From Alistipes sp. (GTDB lineage Bacteria; Bacteroidota; Bacteroidia; Bacteroidales; Rikenellaceae): a stretch of DNA of 42,016 nt. A model generated the notes under the pieces. The model saw nothing but the letters and a program-made list of their open reading frames with translations. It did no database searches and was not told the origin of the DNA. Location of the stretch: assembly GCA_017517705.1 (NCBI GenBank), contig JAFWYM010000011.1, positions 1 to 42,016 of the forward strand. The letters are read 5' to 3'. The position numbers were made by a program, and so were the translations under genes. Shown here in pieces: positions 3,637 to 41,266 of this stretch; within the stretch, counting starts at the first letter, position 1; each line of letters starts with the position of its first letter.

Positions 3637-3681
3637 TCAACCCGAATGGGACATACTAAACGTATTTCCCATTCGGGTTGA
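3637..3681. terminator. Bidirectional terminator between hydrolase gene and aspS
   Basis: A perfect 15-bp stem (3637-3651 with 3667-3681) encloses a loop with a second short stem, ATAC/GTAT. It lies between two convergent genes, so it probably ends both transcripts. The core CCCGAATGRGA...TCYCATTCGGG and the inner ATAC/GTAT stem are shared with the hairpin at 22462-22503. Confidence 0.8.
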
Positions 3682-7089: not shown

Positions 7090-7309
7090 GGAGACCGAAT
7101 AAAAGTCTATTTTGGCGTTCTGTGCCGTGATAAGGCATCATCTGCTACTGCTAACGAATCATCTGAGCAACGGGCCGTACGCCTAAGTACAACCCATCGC
7201 TGCGAAATTCGCCGAGCGTGAGCGGTGAAAAGGAACTTAAGCCTAAAGCCACATCTTTTTATTCAACCTCCAAACAGAAGGGGATGACAAACAAAAATTT
7301 GTCATCCCC
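7090..7309 (-). repeat. Copy 1 of the terminator plus AGAGGTTGAATAAA element (after greA)
   Basis: Read on the minus strand, a hairpin GGGGATGACAAA/TTTGTCATCCCC (7280-7309) is followed by a 182-base element that runs from GGAGGTTGAATAAA (right edge 7271) to an inverted related end at 7090. The element holds a hairpin at 7170-7197 with arms ATGGGTTGTAC/GTACGGCCCGT. It closely matches copy 2 at 35105-35392, with a short block replaced, and more distantly copy 3 at 41112-41266. It fills the gap between the convergent TPR and greA genes. The hairpin arm probably terminates greA; the T-rich run at 7311-7316 also suits plus-strand termination. Confidence 0.75.
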
Positions 7310-33704: not shown

Positions 33705-35036
33705 ATGGAACTGATTAAATTTAATGCTGCGCACTCAGGTGTGACAGTTACTGCAGAGATGCAGGAGGCGGCACGTCGTGCCAATGCTCTTCTTCACACA
33801 GGCGAGGGTGCCGGCAACGACTTCCTCGGCTGGGTAAACCTCCCCACGTCAATCACGGATGGCGACATGGCCGAGATTAAGGCCGTTGCACAGAAGCTCC
33901 GTGAGCGTGCCGAGGTTGTTATATGTATAGGTATCGGTGGCTCATACCTCGGCGCCAAGGCCGTATTGGAGGCTATGAGCAACTCGTTCGAGAGCCTCAA
34001 GAAGAAGCACGACAACCCCGTTGTCGTCTTTGCCGGCGAGAATATCTCGGAAGACTACACCCACGAGCTTATGGATGCCGTCCAGGATTACTCTATCGCT
34101 GCCATCGTGATCTCTAAGTCGGGCACAACCACCGAGCCTGCCATCGCCTTCCGTCTTATCAAGGCCGAGATCGAGAAGCGCTACGGCAAGGCTGAGGCTG
34201 CCGAGCGCATCGTGGCCATCACCGACAAGGCACGTGGTGCTCTGAAGACCCTCGCCACACAGGAGGGCTACCCCACATTCGTTATCGAGGATAACGTCGG
34301 TGGCCGCTACTCGGTGCTCTCGCCCGTAGGACTTCTGCCATTGGCTGTTGCAGGTGTCGATGTCGAGGCCTTCGTTGAGGGCGCTCGCGACATGGAGCGC
34401 ATGACAGCCATGGATCAGCCTATCGAGAACAACCCTGCTGCACAGTACGCCATCGTGCGCAACGAGCTATATAAGGCTGGCAAGAAGATCGAGATCCTCG
34501 GCTCGTATGAGCCTAAGTTGCAGTATATCGCCGAGTGGTGGAAGCAGCTCTATGGCGAGTCGGAGGGTAAGGATGGCAAGGGCATATTCCCCGCAAGCGT
34601 AACGCTCACTGCCGACCTCCACTCTATGGGTCAGTATATCCAGGAGGGTGAGCGCACCCTGTTCGAGACAATCATCTCAGTGAAGAACTCGAAGTATGAG
34701 GTTAAGGTGGAGGCAGACGAGGCTAACCTCGACGGTCTTAACTTCCTCACCGGCAAGCGTCTATCAGAGATCAACAAGATGGCAGAGCTCGGCGTGCGTA
34801 TCGCACACGTTGATGGTGGCGTGCCCAATATGCTTATCGAGATTGAGCGTATCGACGAGCGCACCATAGGTCAGCTCCTCTATTTCTTCGAGAAGGGCTG
34901 TGGTATCTCGGGATATATGCTCGGAGTCAACCCCTTCAACCAGCCCGGCGTGGAGGCATACAAGAAGAATATGTTTGCACTCCTGGACAAACCCGGATAC
35001 GAGGAGGAGTCGAAGGCCATCAAGGCAAGACTTTAA
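33705..35036 (+). CDS. pgi: Glucose-6-phosphate isomerase
   Basis: A 443-residue enzyme interconverting glucose-6-phosphate and fructose-6-phosphate in glycolysis and gluconeogenesis. Typical segments include [34 protein letters not shown] (the phosphate-binding SKSGTT) and the SIS fold. [21 protein letters not shown] and the C-terminal [18 protein letters not shown] contain catalytic residues. The length matches the short bacterial form. It follows gpsA and is ended by the hairpin at 35105-35136. Confidence 0.97.
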
Positions 35037-35104: not shown

Positions 35105-35144
35105 GGGGATGACTAAAAAGTAAATTTGTCATCCCCGTTTTTTT
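35105..35144 (+). terminator. pgi terminator (repeat family hairpin)
   Basis: GGGGATGAC (35105-35113) pairs with GTCATCCCC (35128-35136) and is followed by GTTTTTTT. The same hairpin occurs after greA (7280-7309) and, altered, after dnaK (41112-41148). Confidence 0.85.
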
Positions 35145-35392
35145 AAGAGGTTGAATAAAAAGATGTAGTTTTAGGCTTGCGAAGCCCGAAAAAGCGCAGT
35201 TTACTTGGCGTAAATGAGCATTTTGAGGGCGAGCATTTTGTTGCGATAAGGTATTAGATACAACGCTCGGCGAATTTCGAGGCGATGGGCTGTACTATGG
35301 CGTACTGCCCATTGACGAGATAATTCGTTAGCGGAAGTAGATGATGCCTTTTCACAACAAAGAACGCAAAATACACCTTTTATTCAGCCTCT
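35105..35392 (+). repeat. Copy 2 of the terminator plus AGAGGTTGAATAAA element (after pgi)
   Basis: This copy is the most complete. After the pgi terminator hairpin comes an element of 247 bases (35146-35392). Its left end, AGAGGTTGAATAAAA, is matched in inverted form at the right end (TTTTATTCAGCCTCT), with one mismatch in 15. The interior shares long blocks with copy 1: CGCTCGGCGAATTTCG, TTCGTTAGC and AGATGATGCC. It has a hairpin at 35285-35312 with arms ATGGGCTGTAC/GTACTGCCCAT. About 84 bases near 35176-35260 replace a 19-base block of copy 1. The right end lies directly against the 3' end of rnpB. It contains no protein gene. Confidence 0.8.
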
Positions 35393-35398
35393 GTTTTT

Positions 35399-35743
35399 GG
35401 ATACGCTATAAGCCGAGTTCTGTACTCTGCCGAGACAGAGCCTCCATCATTTATCTACGACGGCAATCACTTGCCGCCTCCAGCAACCTACCCCCCGACA
35501 TTGGACGAGCAGCCCTTAGTTGTCGGTATACACGGTCTTGCAACCCACGAGACGTACAGCCGAGGAGTATTGCTACCCTCGCGGTGGGCTCTTACCCCGC
35601 CTTCTCACCCTTACCCTTGCGGGCGGTCATTCTCTTCTACGCTACTATACACTTACGCATATCAAGCCGTTAACTTGCGCGGTGCTCTATGTTGCTCGGA
35701 CTTTCCTCCCCCACATAAAGTGGCAGCGATGGAGCGCATATCC
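35399..35743 (-). ncRNA. rnpB: RNase P RNA
   Basis: This is the catalytic RNA of RNase P, which trims 5' ends of tRNA precursors. On the minus strand the highly conserved GAGGAAAGTCCGAGC block lies near the 5' end and ACAGAACTCGGCTTATAG near the 3' end. The P1 helix pairs GGATATGC (35743-35736) with GCGTATCC (35406-35399), fixing the ends to within a few bases. The length of about 345 is normal for a type A-like RNA. A TTG-N19-TACCTTTG promoter lies just upstream. Open frames across this interval are not genes. Confidence 0.95.
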
Positions 35744-35747
35744 GCGA

Positions 35748-41111: not shown

Positions 41112-41266
41112 GGGGGGGGGACAAAATGTAAATTTGTCATCCCCCCCCTTTGTTAAGAGGTTGAATAAACGACATAATTGCCGTCGATGGATAGTGCTTA
41201 GACGCACATTCCATTGGCGGCACTTTTTGTTAGTGAGGCTGACTATAAAGCAACTCAGTCAGCCTC
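41112..41266 (+). repeat. Copy 3 (divergent) of the terminator plus AGAGGTTGAATAAA element (after dnaK)
   Basis: A hairpin of nine G (41112-41120) plus ACAAA pairs with TTTGT..CCCCCCCC (up to 41148) and probably terminates dnaK. The next bases, AAGAGGTTGAATAAA (near 41154-41169), match copies 1 and 2. The core hairpin at 41187-41214 (ATGGATAGTGC/GCACATTCCAT) is homologous but has different, compensating bases. The copy ends with an extra perfect 10-bp hairpin, GAGGCTGACT/AGTCAGCCTC (41235-41244 with 41257-41266). The inverted right end of copy 2 is not found. Confidence 0.65.

Follow-up and report, generated by a model that had tools for sequence, protein, structure and literature searches.

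Why should the same stem-loop, T-rich stretch and repeat element stand behind three different genes of one contig? The window analysed here is 42,016 nt long and makes up the whole of contig C24 in a 48-contig, 1.99-Mb draft genome of Alistipes sp. A preliminary description of its sequence had reported this arrangement after the stop codons of greA, pgi and dnaK, and had proposed either a mobile hairpin element that brings or targets terminators or a family of 3'-derived small RNAs. The three copies are present where it placed them. The exact 13-mer GAGGTTGAATAAA lies at 7258–7270 (−), 35147–35159 (+) and 41157–41169 (+), each time preceded by a stem-loop (7280–7309, 35105–35136 and ca. 41112–41148). 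With up to two mismatches it has 8 sites in the window against 0.54 expected, a number reached in none of 100 shuffles and thus well above chance. In our preferred reading, to which we assign a probability of roughly 0.55, the unit belongs to an ERIC-like superfamily as a non-autonomous mobile palindrome, carries or is joined to a terminator stem-loop, stands at gene 3' ends in place of terminators, and spreads by exchange.

The layout of the unit is a stem-loop (T), a spacer of about 10 nt, and then an imperfect palindrome of 121–122 bp (B). The features around the pgi copy are as follows.

33741..35036, +, pgi, from the ORF list and a codon-based gene call; the start is uncertain (the ORF opens at 33705) and the name is that of the preliminary description
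35105..35136, +, T, terminator-type stem-loop GGGGATGAC..GTCATCCCC with a 9-bp stem and a 14-nt loop
35137..35146, +, T-rich spacer GTTTTTTTAA from T to B, 10 nt; in other copies commonly GTTTTGTTAR
35147..35236, +, left part of B with the conserved core hairpin GCGAAGCCCGAAAAAGCGCAGTTTAC..GTAAATGAGCATTTTGAGGGCGAG; copies in the same genome match positions 1–92 of the query; 83.1 bits with structure model R1
35237..35362, +, C, a second palindrome with ends TTTGTTG..CAACAAA, inserted in B and absent from the 122-bp copies
35363..35391, +, right inverted end of B, ..CTTTTATTCAGCCTC
35393..35745, −, rnpB (RNase P RNA), the convergent neighbour of the pgi copy; Rfam RF00010, 219.8 bits

The last 150 residues of pgi are 80–99% identical to those at 7 relative loci. 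B ends in GAGGTTGAATAAAAAG..CTTTTTATTCAGCCTC in this copy, and C (query positions 93–217) is nested in its predicted fold. C (AATTTGTTGTCAAAAGG..CCTTTTCACAACAAATT) is also repeated on its own elsewhere in the genome; it is found alone, in tandem at a spacing of ca. 115 bp, or within B, examples being 35237–35362 of the window and C7:66077–66436 (L007, L025). T has the form of an intrinsic terminator, a stem-loop and then a U tract after the stop codon, with a long loop (14 nt) and a tract that is often interrupted in the family. A simple terminator scan, which permits loops of 3–8 nt only, did not report T at pgi. From its form, the unit is predicted to terminate transcription.

The other two copies in the window are mosaics.

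7280..7309, −, T stem-loop after greA
7091..7271, −, mosaic B after greA, made of the left end, C-type sequence and the right end; R1 25.0 bits
41112..41148, +, T stem-loop formed by a G/C run, after dnaK
41157..41169, +, left end of B only, after dnaK
41180..41221, +, a further hairpin GCCGTCGATGG..CCATTGGCGGC of the dnaK mosaic; related hairpins adjoin composites elsewhere
41235..41266, +, hairpin GAGGCTGACTATAAAGC..AGTCAGCCTC at the end of the dnaK mosaic, of the same type as the GGCTGACT hairpins

Past the hairpin and the initial 13–36 bases of the element, the greA, pgi and dnaK copies diverge. They are members of one family with a complete B at pgi only, since T and the left end are common to them and little else is, and their R1 scores differ. 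The dnaK copy has the left end of B and then two different hairpins, and its sole R1 match (20.2 bits) falls on the stem-loop, not on B; the noise level of R1 in the window is 15.7 bits (3638–3681). The GGGGATGAC/GTCATCCCC hairpin that had been described for all three copies is found at greA and pgi, but the stem at dnaK is mostly a run of G and C.

The family is far larger than these three. BLAST of the pgi copy against its own genome gave 96 matching pieces; the 13-mer with at most one mismatch has 78 sites (0 for a reversed control), and the exact GGGGATGAC..GTCATCCCC hairpin has 33 (0 in the control). After reverse-strand and duplicate matches were dropped, there were 39 distinct B matches among the loci examined in this genome. 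Four contigs of the assembly end within a unit (C5, C27, C45 and C48). A query of T and B together (162 nt) matched 33 of 61 genomes, including 27 of 36 relatives of the same genus. The preliminary description had suggested a search for further copies with a structure model, and R1 matched 22 of 37 genomes – 17 of 23 from the same genus (the own genome included) and 5 of 14 from other families – though its match counts per genome may take in both strands of one palindrome. Among the matches listed, genomes with the core are labelled Alistipes sp., Rikenellaceae bacterium and once Bacteroidales bacterium, and the source, where named, is ruminant gut. The genomes compared are mostly draft metagenome assemblies.

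In RNA folding T forms a single hairpin and B a single long one. T and B together have a z score of −8.15 and the pgi copy, with C nested, one of −9.06, and in both cases none of 200 shuffles was as stable. In an alignment of 21 diverse copies of B (23 chosen from 142 at a 93% identity limit, with L099 and L158 left out), 96.3% of the cells pair, and in 17 of the 40 pairs both sides vary but remain paired. Shuffled alignments gave 9.1 ± 1.4 such pairs, with none of 500 reaching 17, and partners slid by 1–3 columns gave 1–6; structure and test come from one alignment, which favours the structure. With ten elements from five other families of the order added, in an alignment that left out 10 of the 23 chosen copies and one of 11 order-level matches (L277), two-sided change is seen in 27 of 33 predicted pairs. 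A framework of internal loops (AGGC.., C-G-N-A-G.., ..UGA.., ..AAC) is almost fixed across the families. B keeps one long hairpin through compensatory change.

A codon-based gene caller placed 17 of the 39 B matches between convergent genes, 9 in a tandem context in which both genes face the T side, so that the B end follows a gene, 5 in the opposite tandem context with the T side after a gene, and 1 between divergent genes; 7 were not assigned. One locus of the first tandem kind (L027) is actually convergent, with a tRNA-Met gene before T, so that the 32 assigned contexts become 18 convergent, 8 B-first, 5 T-first and 1 divergent. Among the 28 gene junctions of the window, to which the comparison is confined, 5 are convergent and 5 divergent. 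The context counts place most units at gene 3' ends, some in one orientation and some in the other. The identical orientation relative to the preceding gene that had been reported for the three window copies is real for those three but does not extend to the family, and it is little informative even there, because the gaps that hold the greA and pgi copies are convergent, and a unit placed there either way round comes after a gene.

Within the 60 nt upstream of B, 71 of 114 copies (a number that includes orthologues) have an uninterrupted stem of 8 bp or more, against 64 of 617 upstream control segments and 9 of 112 downstream segments, and in 66 of the 71 the gap from this stem to B is 2–11 nt. 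An earlier hairpin detector was useless, as it fired at 110 of 114 copies and at 379 of 404 controls, and the rule of an uninterrupted stem was used instead. A strict link between terminator and repeat, as first described, is not supported: T occurs without B, and B also follows other hairpins or an IS.

The genome of isolate RGIG5460 (G061) is near enough for a site-by-site comparison. It covers 29 loci of the own genome: 8 locus pairs, 19 loci placed by anchors, pgi and dnaK. There were 27 anchors, and the 8 that were not placed in G061 are outside the count of 29. At 7 of the 29 loci (pgi, L012, L024, L028, L047, L050 and L181), G061 has a short stem-loop that exactly replaces the unit, with both flanks alignable (40-nt flank identities of 0.68–1.00) and the limits of the stem-loop read by eye. 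One more swap (L015) is seen from one side only. In 2 cases G061 has a solo GGCTGAC-type hairpin (L048, read from one flank, and L190), and in 3 it has T but no B (L057, also from one flank, L002 and L014). The unit is present in the same direction at 6 loci (L019, L021, L003, L023, L027 and L039; L021 and its partner L020 are two contig ends) and inverted at 2 (L192/L152 with both flanks alignable, L184/L137 with one flank only). Other palindromes are found at 2 (L054 and dnaK, both read from one flank), while the last 6 (L013, L016, L044, L053, L060 and L188) fall in no class. There is also a swap in reverse, L187/L108, with the stem-loop in the own genome and the unit in G061.

At the pgi site the sister genome reads ..AAACAAA GGTGTCGGCCGTGATGGCCGACACC TTGTTTTTT.. 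and the own genome ..AAAACAA (unit) TGTTTTT... G025, which is more distantly related, has a GGTGT..ACACC stem-loop there as well, and this indicates that the unit is the newcomer and the stem-loop was lost; pgi is the one site at which the polarity of a swap is established. At L012 another relative, G035, itself has the unit after the same gene. The sister hairpin at L028, 44 nt long, has arms that resemble B (GAATAAAAG..CTTTTATTC); it may thus be a related element that has been shortened and not an unrelated terminator. The A-tract is kept at all seven swap sites and the T-tract is kept or, at L012 and L047, shortened. No target duplication flanking the unit was seen by eye at these seven sites. 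Plain insertion is therefore disfavoured there, since neither the old stem-loop nor a duplication is present and either would be expected. The B-bearing stretch of L014 lies between direct repeats of GTTAG, which might stem from a target duplication or from slippage.

Parts of the unit are also gained or lost separately, as T stands without B at three sites. Turnover at these sites may be general, given the 6 loci without a class and the 2 with unrelated palindromes. As a control, 5 of 23 ordinary stem-loops of the own genome were placed in G061; four are conserved, the remaining one being the L187/L108 swap, numbers too few for a base rate. The original suggestion of a mobile hairpin element that brings terminators is borne out by dozens of nearly identical copies, which mostly lie at the 3' ends of genes, by the stems upstream of B, and by the short stem-loops in place of the unit at some sister-species sites. 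Neither observation that the preliminary description had named as a refutation, an absence of further copies or of any link to gene ends, was made. Across the genus the unit is widespread without being universal; it is a mobile palindrome under structural constraint and is coupled to terminators.

We propose that the unit serves as a substitute for terminators and that this is why it is found at gene 3' ends. It would spread by exchange at terminator stem-loops, and the exactness of the exchange, with tracts kept or shortened, suggests a process whose substrate is the hairpin itself. The simplest route would be strand or template switching between extruded or single-stranded hairpins; an enzyme acting at hairpin bases would be an alternative. 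Gene ends would remain terminated after every exchange, plausibly in both directions. A Y1 transposase (PF01797; RAYT) was found in none of the 23 genomes of the genus, the own genome included, and in 12 of 14 genomes of other families. In 1.15 Mb of sequence, a biased sample, no pair of unit ends 0.5–3.6 kb apart with at most one further end inside spans an ORF of at least 200 codons, and so no transposon with matching ends was found. Exact exchange is a specific and testable sign of the way one such family may move. It would account both for harmless insertions at gene ends and for differences in terminators between close species.

The unit could instead be an ordinary MITE, with an IS transposase of matching ends moving B, or T and B, into poorly constrained 3' gaps, where the old terminators would later decay as redundant. 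Inverted ends, both orientations, near-identical copies and the 18 convergent loci among 32 would all fit, as would the GTTAG repeat at L014, and the pneumococcal repeats have a convergent bias too in the available sections of PMC3049150. We hold it to be rather unlikely, since the old stem-loop is exactly missing at the seven sites, with no flanking duplication by eye, and the 1.15-Mb sample, biased as it is, has no ORF-spanning pair of such ends. Less probable in our judgement is homologous gene conversion, in which units and hairpins that share end sequences (GRGGCTGAxTAAAAAGT) are exchanged by ordinary recombination. The T arms score 10.43 of 16 against the B ends in type 1 (shuffled arms, 7.47) and 9.33 in type 2 (shuffled arms, 6.49), two solo GGCTGAC-type hairpins (L048 and L190) and the hairpin with B-like arms (L028) are the counterparts of composites, and the inversion at L192 fits recombination between inverted ends. 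Against this, several of the replaced stem-loops (GGTGTCGG.., AAGTGCATC.., GTCCTCAG.. and ATGGCGCAACC..) have no such ends. With the two types of end interchanged the T arms score nearly as high (9.18 and 8.78); a shared descent of T and B is thus only possible, as the arms resemble B ends little more than they do those of the other type.

The small-RNA proposal would have B kept for its transcript, as a stable 3' RNA or an mRNA-stability element, with its spread secondary. Strong compensatory change and almost invariant internal loops across families speak for it, the related elements of family f42 discussed below match the Rfam sRNA sX9 in 5 of 7 loci (all below the cut-off), and an ERIC at a 3' end alters mRNA decay in Yersinia according to the sections available of PMC2229807 and PMC10969869. 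Yet the unit takes either orientation relative to genes, its dozens of copies are varied and mosaic, and the window element has no Rfam match, so we consider a retained RNA function quite improbable as the main explanation. Misplacement of a common repeat into gaps by short-read assemblers would explain why several own contigs end inside a unit, but it is hardly credible: the flanks at the two-flank swap sites, pgi–rnpB for example, are in the same order in the sister genome, and the family occurs in many assemblies. Readings as a group II intron or an integron attC site lacked support and were set aside.

Is the unit related to anything already named? Comparison of the window with Rfam gave only RNase P and a tRNA above the gathering cut-off; the stretch of the element had nothing above 13.5 bits, and permissive thresholds on the own and order-level loci were also without result. 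R1 has 1–6 matches in each of five genomes from other families of the order, with a best E of 1.6e-10 to 2.6e-14 in four and 2.6e-9 in G046, and 6 of 11 order-level elements start at most 11 nt from the stop of a raw ORF. R2 matched 31 of 296 genomes of the phylum (the own genome included, 12 candidates scored per genome), and 28 of these are in f42. The f42 genomes, the source of most of the loci L280–L308, are ca. 2–3 Mb, have 1–12 matches each among the 12 scored, and have a G+C-richer core hairpin. The sX9 matches of f42 score 26.9–35.8 bits (cut-off 44; E 0.0029–0.29), a hint that sX9 is a repeat of the B superfamily.

An f42 consensus made by eye finds a repeat of ca. 130 bp in 18 records from Escherichia, Salmonella, Klebsiella, Yersinia, Aeromonas and Comamonas. 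In E. coli, Yersinia and Comamonas (L309–L312) its core hairpin is the same as that of B; the repeat differs in its outer stem sequence, and no T hairpin was noted with it. R2 matched 3 of 4 stretches of the repeat (E 2.6e-7 to 1.1e-3), the Comamonas stretch being the exception. As an intergenic repeat (L309, L310 and L311) it matches 5375 of 5426 E. coli genomes, at a median of 5 places, and the ten E. coli places among the matches listed have no annotation.

ERIC (also IRU or RU-1) is an intergenic imperfect palindrome of ca. 125–127 bp that forms one long stem-loop and is present in many copies, and B (121–122 bp) is likewise. The ERIC consensus was taken up first, and the kinship test came afterwards. 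With filters off, R2 matched 5 of 5 ERIC loci, one locus being represented twice from different strains, at the position of ERIC, with 18.5–22.6 bits and E of 0.0015–0.013; the next best match had 9.8 bits. The core – G-N-A-G stem, loop, and stem TGA, with a perfect 5-bp stem – is shared by the own copy and 2 of 5 ERIC copies. In pairwise comparison with ERIC the own copy is weak (12 of 500 shuffles reach its score), one order member and the E. coli repeat do better (0 and 1 of 500), f42 is modest (18 and 24 of 500), and five others are not significant (100 to 373). B is probably kin to ERIC within an ERIC-like superfamily, though we do not class it as ERIC. The earlier remark that the element was not recognised as a named family is right in that no Rfam family covers it, but it needs qualification for this probable kinship, which connects repeats classified separately. 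That enterobacterial ERIC is one branch of a phylum-crossing superfamily, and that hairpins of the ERIC type need no transposase of their own to spread but take the place of resident terminator stem-loops in hairpin-templated exchange, so that terminators themselves would be a mobile, exchangeable currency in the genus, is a wider view that we offer tentatively and regard as doubtful.

The sections available of PMC2229807 and PMC10969869 describe ERIC as a 127-bp element of Enterobacteriaceae and Vibrionaceae that has target duplications, affects mRNA decay and occurs at gene 3' ends; a review table in the former gives TA at the termini along with the duplications. The termini of B are GAGG..CCTC, GAGA..TCTC or GAAG..CTTC, without TA, unlike ERIC. 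The hosts of B among the matches listed are labelled Alistipes, Rikenellaceae or Bacteroidales, in contrast to the Enterobacteriaceae and Vibrionaceae of ERIC (PMC10969869, in the same sections), and the descriptions of ERIC in these parts of the two papers do not include a terminator hairpin as a component, unlike the unit.

Three other systems are comparable. REP palindromes, associated with RAYT (IS200-like), are extragenic, as is the unit. They are 20–40 bp long in the part of PMC3733652 at hand, while B is 122 bp and T alone 32 bp, and the Y1 (HUH) transposase of REP/RAYT is the one found in 0 of 23 genomes of the unit's genus. YPAL (RU-2) of Yersinia is a mobile palindrome whose targets span or adjoin dyad symmetry, though it is 168 bp long with target duplications of 3–26 bp (PMC2229807, section 11), and its sequence (PMC2759123) has no B-type core as judged by eye. 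SPRITE of Streptococcus pneumoniae is a terminator-like repeat enriched near the 3' ends of convergent genes; it differs in its 18-bp stem and long U-rich tract, no ERIC-like partner is described in the accessible portion of PMC3049150, and its authors report there that they had no comparable empty site. Among the matches listed, the open-access literature has no recognisable report of the T and B element or of terminator exchange. The unit is a new variant among small palindromic repeats, with an unusual exchange signature.

A few further features of the copies were seen. An IS end, TGACCCC(A/G)AAAGTTTGGAC, which we take to be IS3-like, adjoins B (L015, L026) or T (L067) near the starts of contigs C5, C47 and C6. 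One anchor of L041 is 100% identical in G035 (L252, G035:C19), while the other anchors in G035 are 74–91% identical, which is either a recent transfer or contamination in one of the drafts. There is also a third mosaic module, in which B is cut near TTTACTTGGC and is followed by CTACCTTAAAG and another hairpin – AAGTCCTCCTTTTCAAAGGAGGATTTAGG in L032, L004 and L107, and others in L060 and L035.
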